From assembly GCA_007133615.1 (NCBI GenBank), contig SLMJ01000262.1, positions 1-33,917 on the forward strand: a stretch of 33,917 nt of DNA, read 5' to 3'. The number at the start of each line of letters is the position of its first letter. Position 1 is the stretch's first letter. The position numbers and the translations under genes were made by a program. Shown here in pieces: positions 171 to 30,300 of this stretch. The notes beneath the pieces are model-generated. The model was given only the letters and a program-made list of their open reading frames with translations, did not search any database and was not told the DNA's origin. The DNA is from Thermomicrobiaceae bacterium. Its GTDB lineage: Bacteria; Chloroflexota; Chloroflexia; Thermomicrobiales; Thermomicrobiaceae.

Positions 171-1025
171 TCAGGAGGCAAGTATGAGCAGCACCAGGTT
201 GGCAACCGAGTGGGCGGCGATGACAGCCAGCAGCGACCCCGTAACATACCTGACGTATCCGAAATACAACGATACGCCGAAGATGAACCAGACATTGAGA
301 ATCGAGCCATGGCCAGTGTGCATCACGGCGAACAGGACGCTCACCAGAACGATCCCACCGGTGGTCCCCAGTGCAGCCATCGCGGCAGTCTGCAGCACGC
401 CACGAAAGACGACTTCTTCAACGACGCCGGTACCCAGAATCAGGATGCTTCCAAACAGAACGAGTTGCCCTGTTGTAGATGCTTCCACAGTTATCACCTG
501 ACCGATAAGACTGAACTCGGCCATGCCGATCACGACGCCGGTTGAAATCACAATGATCGTCAGCAACCAGCCCGCGCCGGTCGGCAGTTGCAGGCCGATC
601 TGCCGTCGAGAGAACCCCAGCACCCGGACGGCGGTAATCGCCGCCGCCAGTGGAGGAAGCCCCGCCAGGACGTACCACCATTCGAGGCTGACTGCTCCAA
701 GCGGGAGTCCGAGAGACACAATCCGAATCAGCGGTACCAGTGAGATCGAGAGCCAGAGCGCCATGGCCTTCGGGCGCGGTTCGATCGCTCCGTGAAAGAT
801 AGATGCCGTGAACACCAGCAGATGAATTGACAGCCCGAGCAATGGGCTCGCATACGTTGTCAGTACCTCAGCACAACCGATTGCAATAGCGTACAGGATT
901 GCGAGTTGAACGACTGAAATCGATCTCAACGCCTCCATAGTGCCGACTCTCGTCCCGACGTAGGTAACACGTTGGGCCGGCAGTGATTCCTTCTCAATTG
1001 GTTCTTGTACGGACAACGGGCGCAT
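171..1025 (-). CDS. CPBP family intramembrane metalloprotease (CAAX protease/Abi type)
   Basis: A polytopic membrane protein of 284 aa with about seven hydrophobic segments. The C-terminal half carries the CPBP (CAAX prenyl protease 2/Abi) signature: EEVVFRG around residues 203-209, HTGH at 236-239, and HSVAN at 272-276. These provide the glutamates, arginine, histidines and asparagine that form the glutamate-based active site inside the membrane in this family. In bacteria such enzymes act as intramembrane proteases in bacteriocin immunity or protein maturation; the substrate here is unknown. The longest start (1025) gives a hydrophilic 30-residue leader. An internal ATG at 936-938 (MEALRS) would begin just before the first TM and is a real alternative; neither start has a convincing ribosome binding site. 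It is divergent from the small membrane protein at 1284 and shows no link to the glycan genes. Confidence 0.85.
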   Translation of the reverse strand: MRPLSVQEPIEKESLPAQRVTYVGTRVGTMEALRSISVVQLAILYAIAIGCAEVLTTYASPLLGLSIHLLVFTASIFHGAIEPRPKAMALWLSISLVPLIRIVSLGLPLGAVSLEWWYVLAGLPPLAAAITAVRVLGFSRRQIGLQLPTGAGWLLTIIVISTGVVIGMAEFSLIGQVITVEASTTGQLVLFGSILILGTGVVEEVVFRGVLQTAAMAALGTTGGIVLVSVLFAVMHTGHGSILNVWFIFGVSLYFGYVRYVTGSLLAVIAAHSVANLVLLILAS

Positions 1026-2891: not shown

Positions 2892-3737
2892 ATGGAACGG
2901 CAGGATACAACATCAATGGTGTCGGTCGTAATTCCCGCCTTCAACGAGTCTGACCGTATCCGGGGATCGATCATCGAAGTTTGCGGTGTCCTGGAGGCGA
3001 TCTGCGCCACACCAGACTGGGAAGTCATCGTGGCCGATGACGGGAGTACTGACGCCACAGCGACGATTGTCCGCGAGCTAATGACGCTCGAACCCAGGCT
3101 GTCGCTGCTTTCGTTACCGCACCGGGGAAAAGGGGCAACTGTTCGCTCGGGAATCCTGGCGGCGAATGGCGAGAAGATTCTGTTTTCAGATGCCGATCTC
3201 GCGACCCCAATGCGGGAGGCCGCTCGTCTCTTTGCCGAACTCGAAGCAGGCGCCGACGTCGCAATCGGCTCTCGTGCGGCTCCAGGAGCGCAACGCCTGG
3301 GCGAACCGTTCTACCGGGAAGCGATGGGAGCAGTCTTCCGTTCTCTTGTCCATCTTCTGCTCCTCAGTGATTTTTGCGACACGCAATGCGGGTTCAAAGC
3401 CTTCTCCCGACGTGCCGCGCATGACGTGTTTTCCCGACTCACTCTGCACACCGACGATTCGCCCGTGATCACACACGCTGCCGTAACGGCGTTCGACCTC
3501 GAGGTTCTGTACCTTGCCGTCCACCTGGGGTATCGGGTGAGAGAAGTACCGGTGGAATGGCATTACGGGGCGGGATCGAAAGTCAATCCGCTTCGCGACA
3601 GCCTCGCATTGCTTCGAGATGTCCTGGAGATCCGTTCACGAGTACGCCGCGGGGTGTACGACCTCGTCCCTGATCTGCCAATCACAGATCCAGCTTCTCC
3701 GCTACCGCTAAAGGATGATCCGCATGTCGCTGGATAG
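2892..3737 (+). CDS. Family 2 glycosyltransferase, polyprenyl/dolichyl-phosphate sugar synthase type
   Basis: A 281-aa cytoplasmic GT2 enzyme. The GT-A fold is clear: SVVIPAFNES near the N-terminus, ADDGSTDAT for nucleotide binding, HRGKGATVRSG, and the metal-binding DADLATP. The later conserved block TQCGFKAFSR and the VPVEWHYGAGSKV stretch are typical of dolichyl-phosphate beta-glucosyltransferase (Alg5-like) proteins. Such enzymes move a hexose from a nucleotide sugar to a polyprenyl phosphate on the inner face of the membrane. Unlike GtrB it has no C-terminal TM helices. The start is well fixed by GGAGGAGCAA directly before the ATG. The next gene, a GT39-type membrane transferase, overlaps its 3' end, and the pair makes biochemical sense: one makes the lipid-linked sugar, the other uses it outside. 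The sugar itself cannot be read from the sequence. Confidence 0.9.
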   Translation: MERQDTTSMVSVVIPAFNESDRIRGSIIEVCGVLEAICATPDWEVIVADDGSTDATATIVRELMTLEPRLSLLSLPHRGKGATVRSGILAANGEKILFSDADLATPMREAARLFAELEAGADVAIGSRAAPGAQRLGEPFYREAMGAVFRSLVHLLLLSDFCDTQCGFKAFSRRAAHDVFSRLTLHTDDSPVITHAAVTAFDLEVLYLAVHLGYRVREVPVEWHYGAGSKVNPLRDSLALLRDVLEIRSRVRRGVYDLVPDLPITDPASPLPLKDDPHVAG

Positions 3738-5058
3738 TAGTGCCGATCGAACGACCAGCTCCAGCGCCGGCAGGCTGACAATCAACGGAGTCACTGGCCG
3801 ACTCGCTGCTTCGCTACGATCACTCGCCCAGAGAATGACAACCCTTCACGTTTTCATTGCCCTGTTCGTTGTCGCCTTCCTGTTCCGGGCGGTCTACTCG
3901 CTGATTGCTGCGACGGTGGACCCGATAATGGGCGGTGACCCGCTGATGGGTGACGCCGCGTCGTACGATCGCATTGCGCGAAGCCTGATGGCTGGAGGCG
4001 GATACGGAGAAGTCCCGGGCGAGCCGTCAGCGTTCTGGCCGCCGCTGTATCCGGCGTTTCTTGCTGGACTGTATTCGATCGCCGGATATGAACTCCTTAC
4101 GGCGCGCCTGGTGAATTCAGCATTTGGAGCCCTGGTTCCGATCCTCGTTTACCTGATCGCGATCCGGCTGTTCGATCGCCGGGTGGCGCTTGTTGCCGCC
4201 GTCGGTTCGGTATTCTATCCACTGTTCATCGTCCTGGGCTCATGGGTGATCCCGGACGGCCCCTACATCGTTTTCGTGTGCCTGATCGTGCTGCTCATGC
4301 TGGAGATTCAGGAGCGGCCGCGTGCGTCGATGTATGTCGCACTTGGTGTGACGCTTGGACTGGCATATCTGCTGAAACCTGTGACCGCCTTCTTTCTGCC
4401 GTTCATGATCCCGTGGTTTCTACTGTCTCTGAGAAGTGTTCCAGTTCGGCACCGTTGGATAGCCGGAATCACGACGGCCCTCGTGCTGGCCGCGGTTCTA
4501 ACACCCTGGACGGTCCGGAATCTGGTGGTGCTTGGTGATCCAATTGTTGGCTCGGCGAATGGTGGATATACGTTCTATGGGGCAAACAACCCGGACGCGT
4601 TCGGCGGGCATTACGAGCACTTTCCCGAGCGAATCCCGGAGATGTCTGAGGGCGAAGAACAGATGCATTTCTATCGGCTTGGAGTGGAGTGGATCCGGAA
4701 TGACCCGGCAGCGTTTCTGTCCGTTCAGGTCCAGAAGTTTCAACGTCTTGCCTCTCCGCTGTCCATTTCCAGCAGTCCGCAGGATCTGACGGTTCCCGGG
4801 GAGCGGATCGTCCGATTCTCCTACACGATCTTCCTTCTGCTCGCGTTTTCCGGCCTGGTGATCGCATCCCGACACCTGCGCCGCAACGGTCTACTCCTCA
4901 TTCCGTTGCTGGCTGTCCTTGCGAGTACTGCCGTCTTCTACGGGGACGCGCGCTATACCATGCCGGCAGTCCCGGTATTGCTGATCTGGGCGGCCGTTGC
5001 GCTTGTCCTGGTATGGGATCGATTAAGGCGCTCCAGAGAGTCTCATCTCGGTTCCTGA
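3724..5058 (+). CDS. GT39/ArnT-like membrane glycosyltransferase (GT-C fold)
   Basis: A 444-aa polytopic membrane protein with a cytoplasmic N-terminal tail of about 40 residues and roughly ten to eleven hydrophobic helices. The first periplasmic loop has the family hallmark GDAASYDRIARSL and then FWPPLYPAFLAGLYSIAG, which matches the PMT/ArnT-type (Glyco_transf_39 or PMT_2) pattern with an acidic catalytic residue just after TM1. A late GDARYTMPAVPVLL block is also typical. These enzymes transfer a sugar from polyprenyl phosphate to a lipid, glycan or protein on the outer face of the membrane. The ORF track begins at 3715, but AAGG at 3711-3714 is spaced correctly for the ATG at 3724. The gene overlaps the upstream GT2 by 14 bases, so translation is probably coupled, and a terminator follows. 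The acceptor is unknown. Confidence 0.88.
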   Translation: MSLDSSADRTTSSSAGRLTINGVTGRLAASLRSLAQRMTTLHVFIALFVVAFLFRAVYSLIAATVDPIMGGDPLMGDAASYDRIARSLMAGGGYGEVPGEPSAFWPPLYPAFLAGLYSIAGYELLTARLVNSAFGALVPILVYLIAIRLFDRRVALVAAVGSVFYPLFIVLGSWVIPDGPYIVFVCLIVLLMLEIQERPRASMYVALGVTLGLAYLLKPVTAFFLPFMIPWFLLSLRSVPVRHRWIAGITTALVLAAVLTPWTVRNLVVLGDPIVGSANGGYTFYGANNPDAFGGHYEHFPERIPEMSEGEEQMHFYRLGVEWIRNDPAAFLSVQVQKFQRLASPLSISSSPQDLTVPGERIVRFSYTIFLLLAFSGLVIASRHLRRNGLLLIPLLAVLASTAVFYGDARYTMPAVPVLLIWAAVALVLVWDRLRRSRESHLGS

Positions 5059-6584: not shown

Positions 6585-7532
6585 CTAACCGTCTTGTTCC
6601 AGGGAGTCAACGTTGATTGTCAGATGTCGATGCACTTCGTCACGTCCCTGACTGTAGAGTTCGATTCTGAACGTGCCGTATGTGAGACCTTCCGGCATCT
6701 TCCAGCTAATAGCTTCTGCGTGGGTTGCGCCGGATTCGACCAATAGCGAACTTGATTCTGCGATCGGGCGGCGTTGGGCGGAATCTGCATCCGTCTCGAC
6801 GACAAGGACGAAGTACGTCTGAACGTCGTCAGAGCCGTTGTGGATTCCGAGATTCACCGCAACGTCGCCGCGTGGTTCCACTGCGTACGGATAGTCTCTC
6901 GCTTCTCCTTCACTCCCGAGAATAAAGAACTCGGTATCGAGTTGTTCTGATCGACTGATACTCGACATGACAACGGCGACGAGGAGAAATGCCACCAGCA
7001 AGCTCACAGTGATGGGCACGATCCTGTTGCTCAGCGATCCACCGGATCTGAAATTAACCCCGAATGCTGCCGGAGTCATCTTGTCGGCCGCTTGCTCGAC
7101 ACTCCGATACAGACCGATCGCGATCCAGAAAATGGTCCAGACGGCGAGGGCCGGTAACGTCGATTCTGGCGATATTGCAATACCGGAGAACTCCAGCAAC
7201 AGTGCGACCATCGGGATGATCGCGATGCTGATCCCGAATCCAATGCCGATACCGTACATCCCGGTTGCTTCTATTCGGCCGACGAAGAGCGCCCTCGCGG
7301 TCGCGTAACCAGGAAGCAGAAGCACGAGGGCGATCCCGAGCGGAATGCGGATGTATGCAAAGGGCACGTGCGGCAGCAGAGGCAGAATGATCGCCGAACC
7401 AACGATGATGGTCCAGATCGGCTCATGGAGAAACACGAGGCGCAGTCGTGTGAGCACCGATGGGCCGATCGGCTCAACGAGCGGGCTCTCGAAGCTCTGT
7501 TCGCTGGATCTCGTATGCGGGTCAGTCTGCAT
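6585..7532 (-). CDS. DUF1616 domain membrane protein
   Basis: A 315-aa membrane protein. After a polar N-terminus of about 35 residues there are four hydrophobic helices carrying the DUF1616 pattern: a first pair, then LGIALVLLLPGYATARALF, where the PGY turn after a long helix is the hallmark. A fifth helix (VPITVSLLVAFLLVAVVM) leads to a C-terminal extracellular domain of about 115 residues (EFFILGSEGEARDYPY... to the end). This reads as a beta-sandwich like that of DUF1616 and CARDB-type domains. The biochemical role of DUF1616 is not established; members occur beside glycosyltransferases in archaea and Chloroflexota. The start is supported by AGGA before the ATG, and the gene overlaps the preceding GT4 by 11 bases. 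It is the last intact gene of the large minus-strand operon. Confidence 0.85.
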   Translation of the reverse strand: MQTDPHTRSSEQSFESPLVEPIGPSVLTRLRLVFLHEPIWTIIVGSAIILPLLPHVPFAYIRIPLGIALVLLLPGYATARALFVGRIEATGMYGIGIGFGISIAIIPMVALLLEFSGIAISPESTLPALAVWTIFWIAIGLYRSVEQAADKMTPAAFGVNFRSGGSLSNRIVPITVSLLVAFLLVAVVMSSISRSEQLDTEFFILGSEGEARDYPYAVEPRGDVAVNLGIHNGSDDVQTYFVLVVETDADSAQRRPIAESSSLLVESGATHAEAISWKMPEGLTYGTFRIELYSQGRDEVHRHLTINVDSLEQDG

Positions 7533-8709
7533 TGACCGATTTCCTGTCCTGGTGCTGGATTACCGTCGACTCGCATCGTGCCCTGGTCGCCGCAACTCGT
7601 TCGTAGTGCGCCATCGTCTGCTGCGCAGTGGCATCCCAGTTGAATGCTGATGCCCTGTTGATACCCGCATTCGTGAGAGCCTCATGAAGCGCTGGATCGC
7701 CCAGAACATGGCCTATCGCCGCGGACATTTCGCTGACGTCGTAGGGATCTACCAGAATTGCGGCGTTCCCGGCGACTTCGGGCATGGACGAGATGTTCGA
7801 GGTGATCACTGGGGTTCCGCAGGCCATTGCCTCCAGCACGGGAAGTCCGAATCCCTCATACAGTGACGGGAACAGAAACGCGGTCGCACCCCGATAGATG
7901 CCCGGGAGATCCTCGTCGGGAACGTAACCCGTGAACTTGACAACTCGCTGAAGTACCGGATCCTCCATCACGTGGTCGATAGCTTCCGCTTTCCACTGGC
8001 GCTTTCCGGCGATAACAAGCGCGTACTCCGGATGATCACGATATGCCAGCCGGAACGCCTGGAGCATGCGCGCAATGTTCTTTCGACCGTTGAGCGCTCC
8101 GACGTAGAGCACATACGGAGAGCTGATGCCGTAACGCTGGCGAAGCGTCTGATCATCAGTTCCCAGTCCTCTGCCGGTGAACTGTCGCCCCACGCCTTCG
8201 GGAATCACGGCGACGTCAATATCATCGAGGTTCAGATCGCGGGTGAGATCCTCCTTTGAGGTGTTGCTCACCGTGATCACCGAATCCGTCCGCCTCAGCG
8301 CTATCGGCAGGAACCATCGATAGCGCCAGTTGTCCAGTCGGTTGTGCGATTCTGGCTGAACAAACGGGAATGCATCATGGAGTGTGACCACGCGGCCTGT
8401 TCGCCTCGGAAGAGCCAGGAAAGGCGCAATTCCATTGGGATCATGGATCATGTCCAGCTTCAGATCGTGGGCGGCTCGCCCGATCAGAAGGTTTCCCGCG
8501 GACATCAGCGCAGGCAGCGTGCGACAACCGGGAAGGTTTCTGACAGCACAATGGTTCGCCAGATCTGGATCAAGGGTCTGTTCGGTCGAGAGTATGGTGA
8601 TTTCGTGCCCATGCGTATCCGCGAGGATTGCGAGCAGCAATTCTTTCGCGTATCTGCCGATACCCGTGGGTGCGCGGTCGAGTCCATATGTCAGATAGCC
8701 AATGCGCAT
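7522..8709 (-). CDS. Family 4 glycosyltransferase
   Basis: A 395-aa GT-B enzyme of family GT4. The N-terminal acceptor domain opens with [24 protein letters not shown], whose glycine-rich TGIGRY loop is typical of mannosyltransferase-like members. The C-terminal donor domain has [21 protein letters not shown] and the EX7E motif region [19 protein letters not shown], followed by the [16 protein letters not shown] block that closes the nucleotide site. The donor sugar cannot be read; this subfamily often uses GDP- or UDP-linked sugars. TAGGA about nine bases before the ATG supports the start. It lies 10 bases after the GT-C-like gene and overlaps the DUF1616 gene by 11 bases. It resembles the tandem GT4 pair at 16748 and 17887. 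Confidence 0.92.
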
Positions 8710-8719
8710 GGTTGTGGTC

Positions 8720-10315
8720 CTACCGTTGATAAGGCGTTACCGGACGGATTCGGTACACCTCGGCAGTGCCGTTGTCATAAATCCTGTTGGAATCCGTTGT
8801 GACTGGAAGCTCACGTGTCAACCGTAAACTGCGCATCCGGGATACGTCCGACGTAACGATCGTCTGTGTCGTAGGTGTGCGTGGTCCACCGAAATAGGTG
8901 TTCCCAACCTGTGATTCGGAACGAACAGTGTGATACGCCACGACCAGACGCTGGTCGAACTCGGTCCAGACTTCGGAGTTATCCAGATGCCGTTCCGTCC
9001 AGTCAATCGCTGCAATCTCAGCTGGACGATAGTAGATCCAGGTGTTGCTCACCAGCGGTTCGTTGGTTGCTTTGAACACGGAAAGAGCCGTCACACACAA
9101 TAGCAGCAGTGCAAACCCGAGCCGCAGTGCTCCCGAGTAGCGCTTTGGTTCCCACCTGATGTACGCGTTTACCAGGATTGCGACCGCGAACACGGCGATC
9201 GATGGGAATAGCCGCTGCTGAGCGTTGCTGCTCAACGCCCCGCTGAGATCGACGAGAACCGAGAGAAATCCCTGACCGGCAAACGCCGCATACATCAGCC
9301 AGATAATCAATGATGTCTGAGCCGGGGATTCGGATCGAGTCCAGAACCACCGGATTCCCTGATAGCTCCAGACGATGAACGATGCGCCGAGAACGATCCA
9401 GTTGGCCAGACTGAGGATGAAGTACACGTAGACACTGGTCCACCCCGTAGACACGACTGCGTAGGCGTTCGTCGGCGTCGAGATCTCGGTATTGAGGAGC
9501 AAGGCAGCCATTTGCCCCCAGATAGTCTCGTAGACACTCAGCTGATGCATCGCGGGTGGATAAACGTAGAAAATGAAGAGGTAGACACCGGCGAACGAAG
9601 TAACGAGCACGTATGGAAGCCGGGACAGCGTCGCCGGCACTGCATCCAGCCCGGAACTGCGACGTCGATTGAGTATCCAGCCGACAACAAGGGCGATCCC
9701 GATTGCAAACACGAAGCTGTGCGCGATGAATGAGTTACTGGCGATCAGCGCAAATATTGTGACGTAGAACAGGCTGACGTAAATGGCGAAGACCCGTGGT
9801 TGATTCGACACGTTGATGCTGCGTAATAGCAGAAACAGGCTGAAGAGCATCAGTGCACGGGTGAATTTCTCGTGCGAACTCCGCATCACAACGAAGAGGA
9901 ATTCTGGCTGCGTGAAGAGTAGCAGTGCTCCAATGACTGCTCCGGTGACCCGGCCGCTCAGTTCGCGATACAGGAGCAGCGCCGGCAGGACGACAAGGCA
10001 GGCCAGCAATGGATACACCAGCCGCTGAAGGGTCGCGACCTCGATCCCGGTCGCATGAATCAGAAACGTTGAGATCGCCTGGTAGGAAAAACCATTGGCA
10101 TAAACGTGAACAGAATCCGGGATAAGTCGACCTTGCGATTCGAACTCGACAATGGCCTGAGTGAGTGCGCTGGAATCAGATTCGGCCCAGGCACCGGAGT
10201 AACGCGCCAGGAAGTACACGCCAACCAGGAACATGTAGATGACCGGACCGAGCCAGATGAGGCTGGTAATCGCATTTGAAACTCGTGGAGTAGAGACGTC
10301 ACTCGGAACGCGCAC
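8720..10315 (-). CDS. Polytopic membrane protein, probable GT-C-type glycosyltransferase
   Basis: A protein of about 531 aa with a short cytoplasmic N-terminus, some eleven to thirteen hydrophobic helices and a C-terminal soluble domain of about 100 residues (VWTEFDQRL ... YRIRPVTPYQR). After TM1 comes an acidic external loop (AESDSSALTQAI), then YANGFSYQAISTFLIHATG. This arrangement resembles GT-C enzymes, but I do not see a family-diagnostic motif, so the assignment is tentative. The ORF track starts at 10405, but the first 30 residues of that frame are a shadow of the upstream gene. The GTG at 10315 has AAAGGA eight bases before it, and this start overlaps the upstream stop by 17 bases, matching the coupled style of the cluster. 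A Wzy-like polymerase or ligase is another possibility. Confidence 0.75.
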   Translation of the reverse strand: MRVPSDVSTPRVSNAITSLIWLGPVIYMFLVGVYFLARYSGAWAESDSSALTQAIVEFESQGRLIPDSVHVYANGFSYQAISTFLIHATGIEVATLQRLVYPLLACLVVLPALLLYRELSGRVTGAVIGALLLFTQPEFLFVVMRSSHEKFTRALMLFSLFLLLRSINVSNQPRVFAIYVSLFYVTIFALIASNSFIAHSFVFAIGIALVVGWILNRRRSSGLDAVPATLSRLPYVLVTSFAGVYLFIFYVYPPAMHQLSVYETIWGQMAALLLNTEISTPTNAYAVVSTGWTSVYVYFILSLANWIVLGASFIVWSYQGIRWFWTRSESPAQTSLIIWLMYAAFAGQGFLSVLVDLSGALSSNAQQRLFPSIAVFAVAILVNAYIRWEPKRYSGALRLGFALLLLCVTALSVFKATNEPLVSNTWIYYRPAEIAAIDWTERHLDNSEVWTEFDQRLVVAYHTVRSESQVGNTYFGGPRTPTTQTIVTSDVSRMRSLRLTRELPVTTDSNRIYDNGTAEVYRIRPVTPYQR

Positions 10316-12767
10316 CGTGCTCGTCCTTTCCACGAAGCGACCACAGCAGCCACCAGGAGATACCGGCCATGACAGAGAACGCCAGCAGTGCCAGTGTTCC
10401 GACAAGCAGGAGTGTCCCGCTGGTTCCCAGAAGCAGCATCTGACTCCGGTTTGCTTCCGGGGCCGGCTCTACTTCTATGACCGATGACGCCAGCGCGAAT
10501 TCCTCTCCATCGCTGTCTTCAAGTAGCGGTGTTACGGTCCAGGTCGCGCCATACGGGGCAGTCCAGTCAACTGGAATGGTTCTCACGCCCGTCCCCTGAA
10601 CGTCGATGGAAAACGGACCGATCTCCTGTTCGTAGCCATCGGAGTTCGTGACAAGCAGTGACAGGCTCGCGTCCTCGAGATCCTGCAGTCCGCGATTTCG
10701 CAGTGTCAGTGCGATAGTTCCGGGATCAAGTGCTTGGCGCGGTGAATCCGTAAGCGACGCAGAAAGTTCGGCCGGAGTAAGTTCGACGATCGAGAACTCC
10801 CCGTCGTAGTTGACGAGGTAACTGCCCGGCGCGAGTTCGCCGATATCCAGAAACTCGTTTCCGGTAGACCGTGAACGGGTGCGAATCTCGAGTACGAACC
10901 GGAAGCCATCGTCGGTTTTGCGAAGACCGTGTGCTCGTGCTTTGTCGATTACCTGTGACTCACCGGGTTGCGCTTGCAGCCACTGGCGCAGTCGGAGAGG
11001 ATCTCGCGTCCGTTGCTCGATTTGCCGGTCAATGCCGACGAAATCCTCCCAGGATTCAACGCCCTCAGGAATCGGAACCGCGTCGTATTCAGGAGGTTCA
11101 TCCAGCTCAAGGATTTCAATGGTGCCGGAATCCATATAGATCAGGTAGTTGTCGAGATGATCGAGCGAACGGCTTACACGACCCGGAGATGCGATGGAGA
11201 CTCGGTCGATCAGCGTGGACGTTCTTTCAGGCACCTTTTCGATCCACCAGGAGTCTATGAACTCCCCACCATCCCGGTTCTTCCAGCGCAGGACAGCACC
11301 ATCGCCCAGATTCCAGATACCTTCGGCCGCGTGCTTCAGGTGTATGCGATTGTCGAACGGCGAAACGTAGAGTTCCGGTTGTCCCGGGTATTCCAGGCTG
11401 AACTCCCCGCGGAATCCCTCGCGCAGCCGAAGCGGATGAATCTGCGGAAAATCGAGATACGGGGCGTGCAGATTGGCAAGCGGTTCATGCTCGAGAGTCT
11501 CGAGTGTCAGTTCATCGATTTCCTCCGGCACCTCCTGCGGCTCCGTTGGTGACGCCAGCCGGATTCCACTGAGCCATTCGGTCACCGGATAGTTGTCTTC
11601 CACGCTGAAGTCGTAGATTCCTTCACTTCCGGTCTCACCTTCGGTGGCTTCAACAAAGGTGACGCCTGGCCATTCGCGGGACAGGATCCACTCCGGGTAC
11701 TCGTCGTACTCAATGGCCACGACCTCGGTATCTCCCACGGTGACGGTCTGGTCGTGCTTATGCGGTCCGTTGACAGACAGCGAATAGCGCCAGCGATCCG
11801 GCCGATCGGTTGTCCAGCTCATTCGAACCGCCGTGCGCTGGGCGTAATACGGGAGCGGGCCGTGCCGATGACCTTCCGGCCAGATGTCGCTTCGAACAAC
11901 GAGATTGGCGTACCGACCGGCGTCTTCGTCGAACCGGTAGAAGGCAAACGGGGATTCGAAGTCGGTTGCCGGGGGCAGGGAGATCGAGTTGATCTGATAC
12001 ATCCCTCCGATGTGGAAACCGCTCCAGTTCTGCTCGAGCACCCGGGTTTCGTGCGAGAAGAAGACCGGCTGAATCGATCCCCAGTGACCTTCCTGGTCCA
12101 CCGCACTGAGGTACGGCCAGGTTGGCATCAATGGCTCGGCCATGTCGAACGGGACAGATTCGTCTACCCGTTGCGTCACTCCAAACAGGGGACTGGCGAC
12201 ACCACCATCTTCGAGGAGTGACTCACGTATGAACCAACCGGGCACCCCGGGTTCCTCTTCTCCAATGCGGATCTCCCATTCGAGTTCGCCCGTTGTGGGA
12301 TTGGCTTCGTAGCCTTCAAGGTCGAACACTGGTTTTCCGTCTTCGACCCAATCCTCGCGGTTTGATCGAATGATCAGGTCCGGGCCAAGATCCGGACTCA
12401 TGGTGTAACGGCCGGATTCAATGATGATTGATTCCCGCATGTCCATGGTCTTCGGAACATACAGGCGAGCGACCGGTTTCCCGTTCTCCATCGAGAAGTC
12501 CAGGACAAGGTCGATCAACTGGTCTTCCGACCAGGAAAGCAGATATGCATCAGTTTTCGCGTTACCCAGTCGCCACCACGGTCCATCTTCCGAAAGCTCG
12601 GCTGACGACTCGGTTTTCTGATCGCGGTTTATGACAGCGACGCTCAACTCATGTCCCTGCCACTCTCCGAACCAGTATCGAGTGTTTCCATAGTCCGGAT
12701 TGGACGCAGACACGTTGACGCTTACGAGCAGGGTGAGGCCAAAAAAGATGCCCAGCAAGATCCTCAT
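10299..12767 (-). CDS. Large exported protein with one C-terminal TM, unknown function
   Basis: A protein of about 822 aa. The start at the ATG 12767 gives a textbook signal peptide (MRILLGIFFGLTLLVSVNVSAS), has GGAG nine bases upstream and sits two bases after the asnB stop; the longer ORF-track version is a shadow. The mature part is acidic and rich in Trp, Tyr and Glu, suggesting beta-rich extracellular domains. About 110 residues before the C-terminal helix read like a CARDB/Ig-like domain (ALTLRNRGLQDLEDASLSLLV). One strong TM helix (LLLGTSGTLLLVGTLALLAFSVMAG) is followed by a short basic tail, so most of the protein is extracellular and anchored. I recognise no catalytic motif. Its place between asnB and a GT-C-like gene suggests a role in building, binding or modifying the glycan at the cell surface, which is inference only. 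Confidence 0.85.
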   Translation of the reverse strand: MRILLGIFFGLTLLVSVNVSASNPDYGNTRYWFGEWQGHELSVAVINRDQKTESSAELSEDGPWWRLGNAKTDAYLLSWSEDQLIDLVLDFSMENGKPVARLYVPKTMDMRESIIIESGRYTMSPDLGPDLIIRSNREDWVEDGKPVFDLEGYEANPTTGELEWEIRIGEEEPGVPGWFIRESLLEDGGVASPLFGVTQRVDESVPFDMAEPLMPTWPYLSAVDQEGHWGSIQPVFFSHETRVLEQNWSGFHIGGMYQINSISLPPATDFESPFAFYRFDEDAGRYANLVVRSDIWPEGHRHGPLPYYAQRTAVRMSWTTDRPDRWRYSLSVNGPHKHDQTVTVGDTEVVAIEYDEYPEWILSREWPGVTFVEATEGETGSEGIYDFSVEDNYPVTEWLSGIRLASPTEPQEVPEEIDELTLETLEHEPLANLHAPYLDFPQIHPLRLREGFRGEFSLEYPGQPELYVSPFDNRIHLKHAAEGIWNLGDGAVLRWKNRDGGEFIDSWWIEKVPERTSTLIDRVSIASPGRVSRSLDHLDNYLIYMDSGTIEILELDEPPEYDAVPIPEGVESWEDFVGIDRQIEQRTRDPLRLRQWLQAQPGESQVIDKARAHGLRKTDDGFRFVLEIRTRSRSTGNEFLDIGELAPGSYLVNYDGEFSIVELTPAELSASLTDSPRQALDPGTIALTLRNRGLQDLEDASLSLLVTNSDGYEQEIGPFSIDVQGTGVRTIPVDWTAPYGATWTVTPLLEDSDGEEFALASSVIEVEPAPEANRSQMLLLGTSGTLLLVGTLALLAFSVMAGISWWLLWSLRGKDEHGARSE

Positions 12768-12769
12768 CG

Positions 12770-14644
12770 TCAACGCTCCAGGCCCGCCGCCTGCTGCCAG
12801 CCTTCGAGAATCGCGAGGCTCCAGTCCTGGTAGGCGGCTTGAGCAGGCGAGGTCGGTTTCGTTCGGTGGCCGTTGCCCCGATGCCGATACAGTTCCGGTG
12901 CATGGCGCTTCACCCAACTGTCCAGATGACCGTTCATCCAGCTGACCATTGGCGCCTGAAACGTCTGTTTCTTCCGGTTGCGAACAGCGGCAGGCAGTTC
13001 GTTTGCGAACGCCTGGCAGAGCATGCCTTTCAGTCCGCCATTCATGAGGTCCTGGCGTTTTAGCTGAGCCACGAATGCGATGAGTTCGAGATCCTGAAAG
13101 GGAACCCGTGCCTCGATCGAAGCACTCATGGTCATTCGGTCTAGTCGGGTGTTGTAGTGTTCTGGAACCATCAGGAGCAGGTCCATCCGGGCAAACTGTT
13201 CGGTGTTGCTTTCACCAATTCCGCGCGGGAGAAGGGCTGCACGTGCAAGCGTGTCGTCGAAGATCTGCTGCAGTATTATTTCGAGATCTGATGGATTGAT
13301 TCCTGCATGTTCGGCCGCCTGTTCTGCGGTAAAGTGCACCCCCGAGACAATCTGGTAGCGCTCAAGTGGTGGCCGACGCCAGACACTGGAAGCGCCAAGC
13401 AGATTCGTTCGCGTACCTGGCGACAGGAACGATGAGTCAGCCAGCAGCCGGGCGAACGGTCCAAACCAGGGAATCCGGTTGTAGCGGTCACCCCGCATCA
13501 CCGCGTTGTATGTCGGGTAGCCGAGAAAAACCTCATCACCGCCGTGGCCAGTGAGAACGACTTTGACCCCGTGCTCTCGGGAATGCTCGCTGAGGATCTG
13601 TTCCGCCAGGGCATAGATCTCGGCGACCGGTTCGTCCACCATGTCCATGTTGGTGTCCAGCCGTCTCAGGAGATCTTCCGGCCCGAACGTGACTTCCGAG
13701 TGGTCCAGTCCGAGTGTTTCGGCAAGTTCCCGGGCGAGTTGAGCATCCATTGTTGCGTCAGGGTTCTGATCGGTGGCGCCCGGTTTCAAACTGAACGACG
13801 ACATCCCCGGATTACCTCGTGCGGCGATCGAGGCGATAATCGTTGAATCGATTCCACCGCTCAGGAAGATGCCGACCGGAACGTCGGACAGAAGTTGTCG
13901 GTCGACCGCTCGCTCGACTTCGTGCCGGAGCTGGTGAACGCGATCCGCCCCGCGCGCTTCAAGCTGAGGGGGTGTGGACCAGAACGCGGGAACAATGGTT
14001 TCGCTTCGGAATCGACCGGAAGCATCGAACACAACACGCTCTGCCGGTCGGAGCCTGTTGATTCCCTCGACCAGCGTGTAGGGAGCAGGAACAAATCCGA
14101 AGTAGAGATACACTCCAACCGCATTGCGGTTAGTTCGCCGACTTGTGTAGGGCAACAGTGCTTTGATCTCGGACCCGAAGTAGACCGCCTCGCTGGTTGC
14201 ACAGTAGTACACCGGCTTGATGCCGAGCGGATCGCGTACAAGGGAGAGTTCCTGTGCCTGGCGATCCCAGATGGCCATGGCGTACATGCCGTTGAGTTGC
14301 TCCAGGGTGGCCTGGATGCCCCATTGTTCCAGCGCTTGCAAAACGGTCTCGGTATCGGATTCAGACCGATAGTCTTGTACTCCGTAGCTTGTGAGCTGAG
14401 CACGGAGCTCGTGATGGTTATAGATCTCCCCGTTGTAGGCCAGAACGTAGCGATCGCTCGACATTGGCTGATCTCCCGCGGCGGAGAGATCCTGGATGCT
14501 GAGCCGCCGTGTACCAACACCGAACGGTCCCTCGCAGTGGGTCCCAGCCTGATCGGGACCCCGATGGGCGATGACCGAACTCCAGGCGTCGAGATCTGGC
14601 CGCTCGATATGCTCCGGCATGAGATATCCGACGAAACCACACAT
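12770..14644 (-). CDS. asnB: Asparagine synthase (glutamine-hydrolysing) family amidotransferase
   Basis: A 624-aa two-domain enzyme. The N-terminal class II glutaminase domain begins MCGFVGYL, with the nucleophile Cys2 exposed after Met removal, and has NGEIYN at 71-76 and RDPLGIKP at 137-144. The C-terminal synthetase domain carries the ATP-pyrophosphatase P-loop SGGIDS at 262-267 and LTGHGGDEVFLGY. The family makes asparagine from aspartate, but homologues in polysaccharide clusters (WbpS-like) are thought to amidate uronic acids or other glycan groups. Location between a GT4 gene and a putative surface protein favours such a role, though ordinary asparagine synthesis cannot be excluded. 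Two ATGs are adjacent. The second (14644) forms TGATG with the upstream stop, puts Cys at position 2 and is correctly spaced from AAGGA, so it is preferred over the track's 14647. Confidence 0.93.
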   Translation of the reverse strand: MCGFVGYLMPEHIERPDLDAWSSVIAHRGPDQAGTHCEGPFGVGTRRLSIQDLSAAGDQPMSSDRYVLAYNGEIYNHHELRAQLTSYGVQDYRSESDTETVLQALEQWGIQATLEQLNGMYAMAIWDRQAQELSLVRDPLGIKPVYYCATSEAVYFGSEIKALLPYTSRRTNRNAVGVYLYFGFVPAPYTLVEGINRLRPAERVVFDASGRFRSETIVPAFWSTPPQLEARGADRVHQLRHEVERAVDRQLLSDVPVGIFLSGGIDSTIIASIAARGNPGMSSFSLKPGATDQNPDATMDAQLARELAETLGLDHSEVTFGPEDLLRRLDTNMDMVDEPVAEIYALAEQILSEHSREHGVKVVLTGHGGDEVFLGYPTYNAVMRGDRYNRIPWFGPFARLLADSSFLSPGTRTNLLGASSVWRRPPLERYQIVSGVHFTAEQAAEHAGINPSDLEIILQQIFDDTLARAALLPRGIGESNTEQFARMDLLLMVPEHYNTRLDRMTMSASIEARVPFQDLELIAFVAQLKRQDLMNGGLKGMLCQAFANELPAAVRNRKKQTFQAPMVSWMNGHLDSWVKRHAPELYRHRGNGHRTKPTSPAQAAYQDWSLAILEGWQQAAGLER

Positions 14645-14654
14645 CATCGGATCC
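14642..14654 (-). repeat. 13-base repeat at the GT4-asnB junction (copy 1)
   Basis: GGATCCGATGATG on the minus strand contains the end of the upstream stop region and the two adjacent start codons. The same 13 bases occur at 20244-20256, where they form the same kind of stop-start junction. Confidence 0.45.
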
Positions 14655-17890: not shown

Positions 17891-19143
17891 TGCATGACCG
17901 TCTTCTGCTGATCGTGTTGATCTGGTTGGGCCTTTCGCCTTTCAGGACGGCGAATCTCGAACAGCCGCCTCGTGCTACGCTTGCGCTCGGTTACCCGTGC
18001 GTATGCGTCGAGGGTTCGATCGGTGGTGTGTTCCCAGGTGAATCTCGCTGCCTGCTCGAATCCTGCATATTTCAGCCGGCGTTCCAGTGCCTGATCTGCA
18101 AGAATCTGGTTGATTGCCAGCGCAAGGCGGTAGTGTGAATCGGCGCCTGGCGCGAACTGGAGCGCCGCATCTCCGGCGAGCTCAGGGAGCGACGCTGCGT
18201 TCGAGCAGACAACGGGGGTACCGCACGCCATCGACTCCAGCACCGGAAAGCCGAACCCCTCATAGAGTGACGGCATTACACAGATCGTCGCGAGCGAATA
18301 CAGCGCCGGTAGATCAGACTCCGGCACATCTTCAAGGAAATGGATCGCATGCCGGATCCCGATTCGCTCCGCATGACTGATAAGTGACGCGCGTTCGGCC
18401 TGATTGTGGGGACGACCAACTTTGATCAGGTCCACGTCGTCGCGTTCATGATGCACGAGAGCCAACGCGTTGAGTAGCGTCTTCAGATTCTTCCTCGGAT
18501 CTTCCGAGCCGACGTAAATCAGGAACCGCCGGCCGGCAGGCAATTGATACCGCTCCAGGAGCTGCTGGAGTGGGGGAGTCGGCCTGAATCGTTGGTGATC
18601 GATACCAAGGTGTACGACGCCGATCCGATCTCCCGGTAGCGAGAGCTCACGAATCAGACTTTGTCTGGTGAATTCTGAATCCGCAACGATGTAGTCCGCT
18701 CTCCGGAGGCCCCGCATTGCCAGGGCATCGAAACGGCGATCGAAGACACCGCGGTAACTGGTGAGATCTGGATTGTCCCGCAGAAGATACGGAATGATGT
18801 CGTGGACGGTAACGATCGTCGGCACTGATGGTTTTCGAATCATCAGCAGCGACGCCAGATTCTGACTGCTGACATGCAGCACGCGAGTCTCCGGGTACGC
18901 CGCCCAGACGGGATAGTTCGACAGAAATGCTGGAACATCGATGTGCAGGCGATCCCTGAGGATCCGCGTGATCATGCGATCTCGAGGGACCCACGGCGAT
19001 ACGCGCTCAATGCCTACACCGCGATTGCGGAGTTTGTGCTCGAGCATGTTGACATAGCGGCCGACGCCGGTGAGAGATTGGCCGGGTTTGGCGAGCAGAC
19101 CGATCGTGAGGTGGCCGTTCGCCTCGTACAGTGAAGTTACCAC
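17887..19143 (-). CDS. Family 4 glycosyltransferase with basic C-terminal extension
   Basis: A 418-aa GT4 enzyme starting at GTG 19143, with AGGAG about nine bases upstream and seven bases of overlap with the preceding gene. The acceptor domain has LAKPGQSLTGVGRYVNML and VTVHDIIPYLLRDNPDL. The donor domain has LIYVGSEDPRKNLKTLLNAL, LIKVGRPHN and LYEGFGFPVLESMACGTPV, then ASLPELAGDAALQFAPG. After the usual end of the fold there are about 35 extra residues rich in Arg, Lys and Gln (KRSTRRLFEIRRPERRKAQ...). Such a tail could bind acidic membrane lipid, but this is a guess. It is the likely paralogue of the GT4 immediately downstream. Confidence 0.92.
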   Translation of the reverse strand: MVTSLYEANGHLTIGLLAKPGQSLTGVGRYVNMLEHKLRNRGVGIERVSPWVPRDRMITRILRDRLHIDVPAFLSNYPVWAAYPETRVLHVSSQNLASLLMIRKPSVPTIVTVHDIIPYLLRDNPDLTSYRGVFDRRFDALAMRGLRRADYIVADSEFTRQSLIRELSLPGDRIGVVHLGIDHQRFRPTPPLQQLLERYQLPAGRRFLIYVGSEDPRKNLKTLLNALALVHHERDDVDLIKVGRPHNQAERASLISHAERIGIRHAIHFLEDVPESDLPALYSLATICVMPSLYEGFGFPVLESMACGTPVVCSNAASLPELAGDAALQFAPGADSHYRLALAINQILADQALERRLKYAGFEQAARFTWEHTTDRTLDAYARVTERKRSTRRLFEIRRPERRKAQPDQHDQQKTVMQ

Positions 19144-20246
19144 GCCTTCCGTCTCCTCTCACTCAGCAGATCGAACAGCGGAAGCGCGGTTACGAAGAAG
19201 TCAATCATCGCCAGCGCTGGTGCCATCACAACGTAACGCGACGGAAATGGCTGCGTTGCCTCGCGTGACGCTGATGCGGCCTGGCGCACTCGCACTGTTG
19301 AGGCATAGATAATCAAAACTGCCCAGATCAGAAGAAAGATCCGGTGAAGCAGCAGTCCAACGACCGGCAATCCCGTCATCACCAGTCCAAGCCCGATCGT
19401 CTTCCATGTCGCAATGACATCATTACGAGCATCGAACTTCGGTCCGAAAAGGATGAGGTTGCGGAGCCATCTCGACTGCTTGCGGCGGTATTCATCGAAC
19501 GTTGTCGGATAGGACGATGCTATGCTGCTGTGTGGCAGATATCTGATCCTGATCCCGGCGGATTGCAGACGTTTGGCGAGGTGATAGTCCGTTCCGGTAG
19601 GCGCTTCAAAATCCAGCCCACCGATTGCATCGATCGCTGAACGTGCAACGGCGGCGTGTCGCCCTAAGATCCCATCGATGTATTCGCCGTTTCGTGCTGC
19701 AGCAGCGAGATCGCGAGCCCAGATGTGGTGTGCCAGGATCGAATTCACCTGCGACTCGAGAGGGTGGGACGTTCCCGTGACCGCGCGTTCCCGGCCAGAG
19801 ATGATCGGCTCCACCAGTTGCCGAAGCGCGTCTTCATCGAACCGGCAGTCTGCATCTGTGAAGTAGATAATGTCGCCGGTGGCGTGCGGCAGGCACCGGG
19901 CGAGCGCCCGCTGTTTCCCTTCTCCGGGGATTTGTTCGATTACGCGAACTCTCGGATGGGAATATCGGCGTGCCCGTTCGTAGGTATCGTCCGAACCGCC
20001 AGCACAGATGATCAGTTCGCAGTTCGGATAGCTCATTCTGAAGAACGATCTGATATGAGCGTCAATGTTGGCCGCCTCGTTCCACGCAGCGACAATCGCG
20101 CTTACGGCGGGCCGTGCAGGATCGTCGCCAGCGAACGTGCCGGGACGTGTGTCCGGTTTTTTCGCACTCGGGACGATTGCCGCGGCAACTCCGAATGCGG
20201 CGGCTACATCCAGAAAGCTGAAGTGTGCTGAGAGTCCTCGTCTCAT
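19137..20246 (-). CDS. Family 2 glycosyltransferase, membrane-bound processive type
   Basis: A 369-aa GT2 protein. A moderately hydrophobic N-terminal stretch (residues 8-26) precedes the GT-A domain: SAIVAAWNEAANIDAHI, IICAGGSDDTYE, the metal-binding DADC at 131-134, GTDYHLAKRL at 218-226 and the acceptor motif KQSRW at 256-260. The last is close to the Q(Q/R)xRW motif of processive enzymes such as cellulose and hyaluronan synthases. Two or three TM helices follow (about 275-305 and 335-360). This suggests a chain-extending or lipid-linked acceptor role at the membrane. Of two adjacent ATGs, the second (20246) forms TGATG with the upstream stop and has better spacing to GGA, as in asnB, so it is used in place of the track's 20249. 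Confidence 0.88.
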   Translation of the reverse strand: MRRGLSAHFSFLDVAAAFGVAAAIVPSAKKPDTRPGTFAGDDPARPAVSAIVAAWNEAANIDAHIRSFFRMSYPNCELIICAGGSDDTYERARRYSHPRVRVIEQIPGEGKQRALARCLPHATGDIIYFTDADCRFDEDALRQLVEPIISGRERAVTGTSHPLESQVNSILAHHIWARDLAAAARNGEYIDGILGRHAAVARSAIDAIGGLDFEAPTGTDYHLAKRLQSAGIRIRYLPHSSIASSYPTTFDEYRRKQSRWLRNLILFGPKFDARNDVIATWKTIGLGLVMTGLPVVGLLLHRIFLLIWAVLIIYASTVRVRQAASASREATQPFPSRYVVMAPALAMIDFFVTALPLFDLLSERRRKAW

Positions 20247-20256
20247 CATCGGATCC
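20244..20256 (-). repeat. 13-base repeat at the (alpha/alpha)6-GT2 junction (copy 2)
   Basis: Identical to 14642-14654. Both copies encode the final Ile-Arg-stop of the upstream protein and the ATGATG start of the next. Confidence 0.45.
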
Positions 20257-21646
20257 AGAACTCTTTCGCGGCGACCTGCGGATGTGCCTCACCTTTGACC
20301 CAGAGGTACCGGAGTTCATCCTCCTTTGTGATTTCCACTCGTTCGCATGTCTCCCGGAACAGGTATTCATCTCTGAGGAATGTGGCTGACCGAACGAACT
20401 CGCTCGGACTAGCCGATGGAAGCGGGTCTTCGGAAACATGTCGGGAGAGATAACGAAAGGCTTTGTCACACCATCCAGCAACATGAAGCAGGTCTCGAAC
20501 ATCCGGGAGTTCAGACGCCTTCCAACCCGACTGGCATTCGAACTTCGTTGCCGTCTGGATTCCTCCAGTCTCGTCCTGGCCGTTGAGCATTCGTGACAGC
20601 ACCGCCTCGTGCGTTGCAAAGGTTTCAAACGGCGAGATCAGATCAAATGCAAGCAGGATGTCGCCCAGAGGCGCAATCCACATCGGCCCGGTGCTGGTCC
20701 GTCCATCCGGGTACACAACTGTCGGGATGGAACCATCGTCAACGACCCACCTATCGATGAAACGCATTGCTGCTACGGCCGCGTCGATATAGCGCTCGGA
20801 ACCAGTGAGCGACCAGGCTTCCAGCAGTGCGGGGATACAGCGCGCAATGTATATGGGGAAATACTTATCAATCTGTTGCGAGCCAAAGCTGTTCTGTGCG
20901 ATCGCTCCATCGAATGGCGAGTCTGCTCGAATTTGATGGTCGAGAATGTGGTTGATCGTCGGGATCGCGTAACGATCAATCAGTTCGGCATCACCAGACA
21001 TTGTCGCGAGGCTGATCAGTGCATTCGACGCCGTGGCGGCCTTGTTTGGAACGAAGGACGCGTCCGGCTTGCCATCCGATATGCGCTGTCGTTCCTCATC
21101 CCAGAGACGCTCCAGATAGACATGCCTGATGTTCTGCCCGGCAGCGTTGAACGGCATCATCCAGGACTCGTTCCCGTCTTGGCGCAGAGCCGACGCCAGT
21201 CGCAAAAGCGCAACGTCGCAGGCCGCCTCGTGCGGAGTCCCCATCCGCGCTGGATTCATCTCGAACCCGGAGAACGCGAACGTGCCGTCGGACTGCTGGC
21301 CGCCGATCAGATCCTGCCCGGCGCGAATTGCCCGCTCTCGCCAGCGTGATTCGCCGGTGCGTTGCCACAGGTTGAGATAGCCGGTGATGATGCCTTCGTA
21401 TCGCCAATCGAGACCCGCTCCGGTATAGGTGAAGCACTGCTGCCACCAGTGGCAGACCGGTCCGCCGTATCCACCGGGACCGTGCATCGTTTCCAGCCAG
21501 GCGTCGAGCCTCGCCACCGCGAGGTTGATCGTTCGACGTTCTATGGAACTCGGGAGTTTGCTATCAGGCTCCGTGGCCAGCGTGTTGGCCATCCGTGGAT
21601 CATCGATCTGTTCACGACGCTGATGCGGTGCCGTTTGCTGAATCAT
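20246..21646 (-). CDS. Six-hairpin (alpha/alpha)6-barrel-like protein, possible glycan-active enzyme
   Basis: A 466-aa soluble protein with no signal peptide and no TM helix. Its sequence is a series of helical hairpins with aromatic-rich turns such as HWWQQCFTYTGAGLDWRYEG, GYLNLWQRTGESRWRERA, LEAWSLTGSERYIDAAVAAM and ALISLATMSGDAELIDRYA. Repeats of the type W-x-x-T-G-x-x-x-[WY] and helix-helix spacing are typical of six-hairpin glycosidases, isomerases and epimerases. I cannot name the exact family or a catalytic acid. It could be a cytoplasmic sugar hydrolase, a lyase, or a non-catalytic scaffold. The ATG at 21646 overlaps the upstream stop as ATGA; an internal ATG (MANTLATEPD) at 21592 is possible. 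Its neighbours on both sides belong to glycan assembly. Confidence 0.72.
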   Translation of the reverse strand: MIQQTAPHQRREQIDDPRMANTLATEPDSKLPSSIERRTINLAVARLDAWLETMHGPGGYGGPVCHWWQQCFTYTGAGLDWRYEGIITGYLNLWQRTGESRWRERAIRAGQDLIGGQQSDGTFAFSGFEMNPARMGTPHEAACDVALLRLASALRQDGNESWMMPFNAAGQNIRHVYLERLWDEERQRISDGKPDASFVPNKAATASNALISLATMSGDAELIDRYAIPTINHILDHQIRADSPFDGAIAQNSFGSQQIDKYFPIYIARCIPALLEAWSLTGSERYIDAAVAAMRFIDRWVVDDGSIPTVVYPDGRTSTGPMWIAPLGDILLAFDLISPFETFATHEAVLSRMLNGQDETGGIQTATKFECQSGWKASELPDVRDLLHVAGWCDKAFRYLSRHVSEDPLPSASPSEFVRSATFLRDEYLFRETCERVEITKEDELRYLWVKGEAHPQVAAKEFWIR

Positions 21647-28504: not shown

Positions 28505-28986
28505 TGCTTTCCTTAAACAAAGAAAATCGAACCATTCCTGGATTAGCTGATAGATCAAGGAACTCTGGGATCCTTGACAGTGCCCCGTTCCAATGTCCAG
28601 CTCGATCCAGCTTCCTCGACCACTAGCGCGCGTTGGCGGCTGGCGCACCTGGTGGGTCCTGTCTGCCGGGACAACGGTCCCGGGTCGTTTCACAAAATTG
28701 ACCTGTACTTCCCCCTGTCAGGAATGTCATCGATAACTATCGTCCGGTGCGTTCAGATGAAACCGAAGACCCCGTAGCCTGCAGATACCGACTGGAGATT
28801 CAGCCGGTACCGCGGCTGTAATAGGTGCGGTTGGCGTGTTGGTTCGAGTGAAAGGTGTGATGGCTGCATGCCGGAGACCGGACCCCCAGGGCGGGGCATG
28901 TACGGGAACAATCTGGATTCCGGTTCGCCAACCTTTCGGTTGCGCGACACCTGTCGAATGTGTCTGTCTATAAGGGAGAGGGTCAG

Positions 28987-30300
28987 ATGATCACGCGAAG
29001 GACGATCAGGTTACTCATCACCATCACGGTCCTAGTTTCTCTTGCGATTCCAACGTTCACGGTACTGGCCGAAGGAACTGAAACACTTGGGCCACCTGAG
29101 ATTACGATTTCCCCCGGTTCCGGTCACGTTGCTGCAGGCACCGGACTGATCAACCAGCCGGGCACAATTGACATCACCGTTCCCGCGGGAGCGAACGTCG
29201 AGCAGGTGCTGTTGTACTGGGAAGGTCACGGGAACTGCGGGATCATGCCGCAACCTTGCGAGCTCGGCAAGGATCTGACAATCAATGGAAACCAGATCAC
29301 CGGGACGTTAATCGGTGGTCCAACGTTCTTCTACACCTTGCCCCCGAATATGTTCAGCCTGAGCTACCGGGCCGATATCACTGGTCTGGGGATTGTCAAT
29401 GCCGGACCGAACACGTTGACAATCAGCGGCGTGAGTTTCGATGCGTCCTCGCCAACCTGGGGAGACGATCCGGGCTTCGCAAACGGCGCGTCGGTTGTCG
29501 TTATCTATGATGACGGCACGTTCGCCGATGTTGACATCCGGGACGGTAACGACAACGCGTATTTCGCCTTCGATCCGCCGCTTGACACAACGGTTCCACA
29601 AACCTTCGAGTTTGCTGCCGAGGGTGCCGATCGCGTGGCTGATCTGACGCTTCTGGTTGGAAGCGTTGAAAGTCCCGAATTCTCGCCACCTGGACCGCGC
29701 GCAACTCGTGTGGTCGTCACATCCGGCGGCATAACGTCCTACGTCGACAACGCACTCATCAGCTCAGATGGCGAGACCTGGGACACGCTGACTATCAATC
29801 CGACGATTCCGGCCGGCGCAACCAGCCTGACGGTCCAGATCCTGTCCGAGGACGCCCTGGACATCGGAGCGCTTCCGGCATCGCTGTCGTGGGTCAACGC
29901 GACACTGTCAGTGCCGATCACCCCGACGAACGGCGCCGGCGTTGGTACTCCAGGCTACTGGAAGAATCATTCTGACGCCTGGCCAGTTGAGGAAATCGTT
30001 ATCGGCGGAATTACCTATACCAAGTCGCAGGCACTGGAAATCATGAACACGTCACCTCGCGGCGATATGAGCTATCAGATGTTCTGGCATCTCGTCGCTG
30101 CGAAGCTGAACGTTGCAAATGGTGCCGACTCGAGCTGCATCGCAGACACGATCGCAGCAGCCGACGACTGGATGGCGACGTACGGTCCGGCAGGCTCCAA
30201 CGTTCGAGCGAACAACGGCGCCTGGGACATTGGCGAACCGATCAAGAACACGCTTGATCAATACAACAACGGGAAGTTGTGCGCACCACCGCGCGACTAG
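28987..30300 (+). CDS. Secreted protein with C-terminal GTPGYWKNH domain
   Basis: A 437-aa exported protein. The ATG at 28987 is preceded by GGGAGAGGG and gives a clean signal peptide (MITRRTIRLLITITVLVSLA... with likely cleavage after VLA, residue 28). The N-terminal domain, about 40-310, is rich in Thr, Gly, Asp and hydrophobic strands (VEQVLLYWEGHG, NTLTISGVSFD, GASVVVIYDDG), like the DUF3344-type beta domains of extracellular proteins. The C-terminal domain from about 320 opens with GTPGYWKNHSDAWP and has AAKLNVANGADSSC, a conserved block found at the end of many secreted, often surface-associated, bacterial proteins. There is no TM helix or LPXTG at the end, so it is released or held non-covalently. 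It is divergent from the glycan operon and could be a substrate or ligand of the glycan, which is inference. Confidence 0.88.
   Translation: MITRRTIRLLITITVLVSLAIPTFTVLAEGTETLGPPEITISPGSGHVAAGTGLINQPGTIDITVPAGANVEQVLLYWEGHGNCGIMPQPCELGKDLTINGNQITGTLIGGPTFFYTLPPNMFSLSYRADITGLGIVNAGPNTLTISGVSFDASSPTWGDDPGFANGASVVVIYDDGTFADVDIRDGNDNAYFAFDPPLDTTVPQTFEFAAEGADRVADLTLLVGSVESPEFSPPGPRATRVVVTSGGITSYVDNALISSDGETWDTLTINPTIPAGATSLTVQILSEDALDIGALPASLSWVNATLSVPITPTNGAGVGTPGYWKNHSDAWPVEEIVIGGITYTKSQALEIMNTSPRGDMSYQMFWHLVAAKLNVANGADSSCIADTIAAADDWMATYGPAGSNVRANNGAWDIGEPIKNTLDQYNNGKLCAPPRD

Follow-up and report, generated by a model that had tools for sequence, protein, structure and literature searches.

A membrane-anchored extracytoplasmic protein family linked to a GT-C-like membrane protein in glycan gene cassettes of Bacteria and a haloarchaeon: a candidate glycan-assembly subunit

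The stretch of DNA analysed here, called the window below, comprises positions 1 to 33,917 of contig SLMJ01000262.1 (assembly GCA_007133615.1) of a Thermomicrobiaceae bacterium belonging to Chloroflexota, and the main subject is a gene at 10299-12767 on the minus strand that encodes a protein of 822 amino acids (aa), designated Q822. An earlier interpretation made from the letters of this DNA (the sequence-only reading) had listed the open reading frame (ORF) without its strand, as an exported and membrane-anchored protein of a glycan operon. The frame starts with ATG at 12767, ends with TGA at 10301-10299 and is unbroken in the window's own genome; because full-length homologues are found in Chloroflexota, Bacillota and a haloarchaeon and ten residues are invariant among them, it is far from a chance ORF. 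The protein begins with a signal peptide or N-terminal hydrophobic segment recognised by hydropathy and kept in relatives (residues 1-22; 12702-12767, minus strand), and ends with a transmembrane (TM) helix (residues 784-813; 10329-10418, minus strand), which is a helix in the AlphaFold model and is present in complete family members, followed by the short, charged tail RGKDEHGARSE. The predicted ectodomain between them (residues 22-772) has a pI of 4.36 and a Trp content of 3.3% and is therefore acidic and moderately Trp-rich. This layout of signal, ectodomain, C-terminal TM helix and short tail is kept in the complete family members, and both the ORF and the layout were correctly described in the sequence-only reading.

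The 822-aa protein alone matched no Pfam family at E<1, nor any entry of NCBIfam, PHROGs or PDB. Since AlphaFold prediction from the single sequence was useless, with a predicted local distance difference test score (pLDDT) of 38.7, it was replaced by a model based on the 39-sequence alignment (pLDDT 85.3; predicted template modelling score, pTM, 0.80), and the domain borders given here are our reading of the secondary structure in this model. An all-beta ectodomain would occupy residues 29-512 (11232-12683, minus strand), in which FG-GAP_3 was weakly matched by 11 of the 39 members (best E 7e-4); an alpha/beta linker domain containing the invariant P567 would follow at residues 530-663 (10779-11180, minus strand), and a CARDB-like immunoglobulin (Ig) domain at residues 664-767 (10467-10778, minus strand). 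Pfam CARDB (PF07705) was matched by 13 of the 39 members (best E 2.2e-4), and the family profile matched the PDB CARDB domains 3idu (E 4e-4) and 2kl6 (E 1e-3) at residues 664-766. Residues 664-767 may thus be assigned to CARDB at the family level only, and the CARDB-like segment named in the sequence-only reading is undetectable in the window protein alone. Its statement that no other domain is recognisable is right for the window protein, but most relatives carry DxDxDG FG-GAP-like calcium-type loops at one to five of the fixed alignment positions 35, 105, 169, 319 and 497. All of these loops are absent from the window protein; they were lost in its branch and were thus ruled out as a universal feature of the family.

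In Foldseek searches, integrin alpha ectodomains (propeller, Ig and TM) took the top ranks, and TRAP translocon subunits (Ig and TM) also stood near the top. The family resembles CARDB (PF07705) and FG-GAP (PF13517/PF01839) proteins, such as integrin alpha-like propeller-plus-Ig proteins, in having a CARDB Ig domain before the TM helix and calcium loops in most relatives, but the TM-scores of integrin alpha chains over the query are only 0.10-0.13 and the window protein itself lacks the loops. With scores of about 0.1 over the query, the model does not allow a global fold to be assigned. Profile search and structure prediction, which had been proposed earlier as a check, accordingly yielded a beta-rich ectodomain and a CARDB Ig domain, and neither a glycoside-hydrolase nor a global fold match; a confident match to a known family unrelated to glycans was looked for and did not occur.

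Whole-genome searches, together with a non-exhaustive scan of 85,000 species genomes that used one conserved peptide pattern as query, yielded about 40 distinct homologues with 19-32% identity to the window protein. They come from several classes of Chloroflexota, from Sulfobacillus/Bacillota and from one haloarchaeal megaplasmid, and, judged by sequence comparison (family alignments A1 and A3), they form a real, undescribed and very divergent family; a scan of genome contigs with the single window sequence found no relatives, whereas the alignment-based scan succeeded. The archaeal member, Halar_0596 on plasmid phalar01 of halophilic archaeon DL31, was found by a plasmid search (E 8e-17), matches the family profile with 542 bits over essentially its full length, and retains all ten family-invariant residues. 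In the tree, the window protein lies on a long branch in a well-supported set of seven together with members from genomes G265 and G458 and from Bacillota. The distribution of the gene is patchy, because the searched genomes of the window's own genus and family contain no full-length homologue. The short matches obtained in G006-G019, close relatives within the window's family, lie solely in the CARDB region of other proteins and were rejected as homologues, as was a weak and short match in G147 (L042), and the gene for the GT-C-like neighbour described below is in none of G006-G019. Most of the genomes are fragmented or metagenome-assembled, and one of the flippase fusions described below (L033) comes from G343, a genome in 5 contigs that is 95% complete.

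Ten residues are invariant in the 39-member alignment: E271, Y277, R292, W318, W366, E382, R453, D472, H476 and P567. The most conserved core, residues 270-507 (11247-11960, minus strand), is also conserved in the haloarchaeal member and has the consensus motifs FENPFAFY, RYSW, SEGIY, GFRGEY and LYxSPVDxxLHL. Since the family is so divergent, these ten residues would indicate a functional site, and the polar ones among them (E271, Y277, R292, E382, R453, D472 and H476) are its putative constituents.

The gene directly downstream encodes a membrane protein (8720-10315, minus strand), for which a start at GTG 10315 is probable, giving 531 aa and a 17 bp overlap with the 822-aa gene. Twelve TM segments were found by hydropathy, and in 25 sequences of this 12-TM family (alignments A2 and A5; numbering from 10396) D74 of a WxExD motif, located just after TM1 in the first extracytoplasmic loop, is invariant, as are R65, R172, H175, K442, T444, P447, W453 and E460. 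The protein has therefore the combination of multiple TM segments and an acidic motif in the first extracytoplasmic loop by which GT-C enzymes are judged, and no match was obtained for it in Pfam, NCBIfam or PDB. It appears to represent a second undescribed family and is a candidate for a new GT-C family.

These two genes belong to a conserved cassette, namely (Wzx flippase), 822 family, GT-C-like 12-TM protein, GT4, DUF1616 and (CPBP protease), where parentheses mark the components present in part of the loci, and the order of the four central genes is kept in most loci. In the window, the GT4 glycosyltransferase of 395 aa (7522-8709, minus strand; PF00534, E 2e-37) and the DUF1616 membrane protein of 315 aa (6585-7532, minus strand; PF07760, E 7e-24) follow the 12-TM gene, the former being syntenic in relatives and the latter in both Bacteria and the haloarchaeon. 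Immediately upstream of the 822-aa gene is an AsnB-type amidotransferase recognised by Pfam (12770-14647, minus strand), which also adjoins the 822 homologue in a Sulfobacillus locus (L045). The placement of the gene in a glycan operon by the sequence-only reading is supported, as a co-directional run on the minus strand extends from 28447 to 6585 and includes, by Pfam, glycosyltransferases and the AsnB-like amidotransferase.

Gene fusions connect the 822 family with both membrane partners. In four loci (L033, L057, L059 and L061), the 822 homologue carries an in-frame Wzx-type flippase (PF01943) at its N-terminus, and in five further loci a flippase is encoded directly upstream; in the fused members, a hydrophobic segment comparable to the signal peptide comes after the flippase as an extra TM segment. 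L057 and L059 are close relatives and the others lie in different parts of the tree, and the four flippase fusions therefore count as roughly three independent cases or losses. A single polypeptide in L052 comprises the 822 homologue, at its N-terminus, and the 12-TM protein. Among 187 genomes of two groups, the 12-TM gene accompanies every full-length 822 homologue (20 of 20 genomes), and of the 21 genomes with the 12-TM gene, 20 have the 822 homologue (Fisher test, 5e-26, common descent not corrected for); the two families have correlated distance matrices (r 0.70). Inheritance of the genes as a block accounts in part for both the co-occurrence and this correlation.

The haloarchaeal locus keeps this gene order: Halar_0596, 0597 and 0598 are followed by two more glycosyltransferases, the DUF1616 protein Halar_0601 and then Halar_0602. 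The last is annotated as "Abortive infection protein", a name often applied to CPBP-type proteases. The megaplasmid region (L138; CP002989.1, 571710-602975) also contains dTDP-rhamnose genes and flanking transposases, and the presence of the cassette together with these transposases suggests that mobile DNA has transferred it, perhaps from one domain of life to another.

Several other genes of the window were noted around the cassette. A CPBP/Rce1-like intramembrane protease (171-1025, minus strand; PF02517, E 8e-17) lies about 5.5 kb from the DUF1616 gene; its homologue adjoins DUF1616 in about 11 other loci, and it seems to be part of the module, though separated in the window. Many loci have, upstream of their 822 homologue, a pair that is also present in the window and consists of a 466-aa protein without Pfam match (20246-21646, minus strand) and a GT2 (19137-20249, minus strand). 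Another GT2 adjoins a PMT_2-type protein at 2892-5058 (plus strand), and homologues of both genes in L037, or of the PMT gene alone in L053, separate the 822 homologue from the 12-TM gene. Adjoining the glycan cluster is a gene (28960-30300, plus strand) for a 446-aa protein that probably has a signal peptide and matches nothing in Pfam or NCBIfam.

With moderate confidence, we interpret the 822-aa protein as a subunit, anchored in the membrane and facing outwards, of a module for glycan assembly; it would hold the flipped glycan or its acceptor and bridge the flippase and the GT-C-like transferase. In such a module, cytoplasmic glycosyltransferases would build a lipid-linked glycan, the Wzx-type flippase would move it across the membrane, and the 12-TM GT-C-like enzyme of the adjacent gene would use it outside; the 822-aa protein would keep the flipped glycan, or the acceptor, beside the active-site loop of the 12-TM enzyme and would physically connect flippase and transferase. 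The Wzx and L052 fusions point to one common topology, with the tail inside and the ectodomain outside, on the side of the first acidic loop of the 12-TM protein: the flippase C-terminus would be inside, the former signal peptide would cross the membrane, the ectodomain would be outside, the C-terminal helix would return, and the 12-TM protein would start inside and have its acidic first loop outside. This topology suits a subunit that receives a flipped lipid-linked glycan and presents the glycan or acceptor to a membrane enzyme. The linkage of the 822-aa protein to the cassette is strong; as to its exact role, we infer that the adjacent gene encodes a GT-C enzyme, that glycan binds at the site of invariant residues, and that the protein bridges its partners and presents substrate rather than acts as a catalyst. 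The function suggested in the sequence-only reading, a scaffold or a surface protein that would bind or handle the glycan, is partly supported, being the direction favoured by the flippase fusions in four loci, the 12-TM fusion in one, the strict co-occurrence and the synteny kept even in the haloarchaeon.

Several observations weigh against this interpretation. The 822 family matches no carbohydrate-binding module (CBM) or lectin family in Pfam or PDB, and neither PDB nor BFVD yielded a structure that matches the whole fold of the model with a meaningful TM-score, so that architecture and context are the grounds for the word "binding". By sequence, the case for the 12-TM protein as a GT-C enzyme is weak: alignment of its family with the PMT-type family by hhalign keeps the register of the catalytic loop, yet with a probability of only 1.8% and P 0.028. 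No Wzx was recognised in the window, and the PF01943 matches of this genome, four of them over the cut-off, are on other contigs. In G265, the 822 and 12-TM genes are about 15 kb apart. Finally, the invariant polar residues would fit an enzyme equally well.

This last point leads to the alternative that the ectodomain is itself an enzyme, such as a glycoside hydrolase, lyase, transglycosylase or sugar-modifying enzyme, which trims, polymerises or releases the flipped glycan by means of its invariant acids and histidine. E271, E382, D472, H476, R292, R453 and Y277 are invariant in 39 sequences of about 23% identity as well as in the archaeal homologue, and several invariant residues are placed in loops by the structure model, but the family matched no catalytic family in Pfam, NCBIfam or PDB, and no hydrolase fold was found with a meaningful TM-score. 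For the ectodomain, neither a glycoside hydrolase nor a polysaccharide lyase match was obtained in Pfam, NCBIfam or PDB sequences, and the GH2 structures among the Foldseek matches have TM-scores of only about 0.09. The cassette also contains a membrane enzyme candidate already, and we consider catalysis by the ectodomain unlikely. The earlier remark that no known catalytic motif is present holds for family matches, with the reservation that the invariant polar residues leave room for catalysis.

A less probable alternative, to which we give little credence, is that the 822-aa protein is the acceptor, that is, a cell-surface glycoprotein that carries the glycan assembled on it by the neighbouring enzymes. 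It is exported, membrane-anchored and encoded within a glycan cluster, and HVO_2173, a DUF1616 protein from a haloarchaeon, carries N-glycans itself (PMC8241124). However, the N-glycosylation sequon is not conserved in the family, its best position being occupied in 6 of 39 members with about three sequons per protein, and the invariant core and the fusions with flippase and 12-TM protein suit a part of a machine better than a displayed substrate. That the 822-aa protein is instead a sorted surface protein whose C-terminus is processed by the linked CPBP protease, as the intramembrane protease myxosortase sorts MYXO-CTERM proteins (PMC11980579), is very improbable, for, although such a protease adjoins DUF1616 in many loci and the protein ends with a TM helix and short tail, no common motif precedes the helix as in the motif, TM and basic tail of CTERM signals, and in L052 the TM segment runs on into the 12-TM protein and is there not a removable tail.

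The proposed subunit of a glycan-assembly module was compared with known systems. Wzx/Wzy assembly is similar in that a Wzx-type flippase is fused or adjacent to the 822 homologue in nine loci, but no Wzy-like gene was recognised among the window proteins searched, the GT-C-like protein appears to be the outside enzyme, and the 822 family has no known Wz* counterpart. Mycobacterial Emb/Aft arabinosyltransferases reportedly have lectin-like C-terminal domains. An Ig- or lectin-like extracytoplasmic domain that helps a GT-C transferase is common to them and, as predicted here, to the 822-aa protein; in the arabinosyltransferases, this domain belongs to the enzyme itself and is a recognised CBM, whereas the 822-aa protein is separate, except in L052, and has no CBM match. 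A precedent for the proposed help is the GT136 enzyme of GT-C type, which has an Ig-like, glycan-binding CBM and works with a MATE flippase in a three-component system of extracytoplasmic glycosylation; the reaction did not require the CBM under the conditions used, and EmbC and AftD show the same principle of an extracytoplasmic domain that aids a GT-C transferase by binding glycan (PMC11127046). The cassette resembles this system in combining a flippase, a putative GT-C-type enzyme and a beta-rich extracytoplasmic module for glycan work outside the membrane. It differs in that the beta-rich module is a separate and much larger membrane-anchored protein (about 750 aa) of an undescribed family, in that Pfam and PDB give no match to a CBM or known GT family, and in that DUF1616 and a CPBP protease are conserved parts of the cassette, which also occurs in an archaeon.

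A broader proposal, which is possible but doubtful at present, is that the cassette encodes an undescribed flippase-coupled transferase complex of Bacteria and Archaea, in which the 822 family would serve as a dedicated receptor between Wzx and a new GT-C family, accepting the lipid-linked glycan from the former and passing it to the latter, which would polymerise or attach it; the complex would take the place of Wzy/ligase or of an oligosaccharyltransferase in the organisms concerned. To our knowledge, the finishing and attachment of surface glycans outside the membrane are poorly known in Chloroflexota and haloarchaea. The 822-aa and 12-TM families, both undescribed and without a full-length match in Pfam or NCBIfam, are a nearly inseparable pair that spans the divide between Bacteria and Archaea. 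If the role proposed for the 822-aa protein is true, this pair would provide a concrete candidate complex that couples the flipping of lipid-linked glycans to their use outside the membrane, with residues (E271, R292, E382, R453, D472 and H476) and a partner protein now named for testing it.

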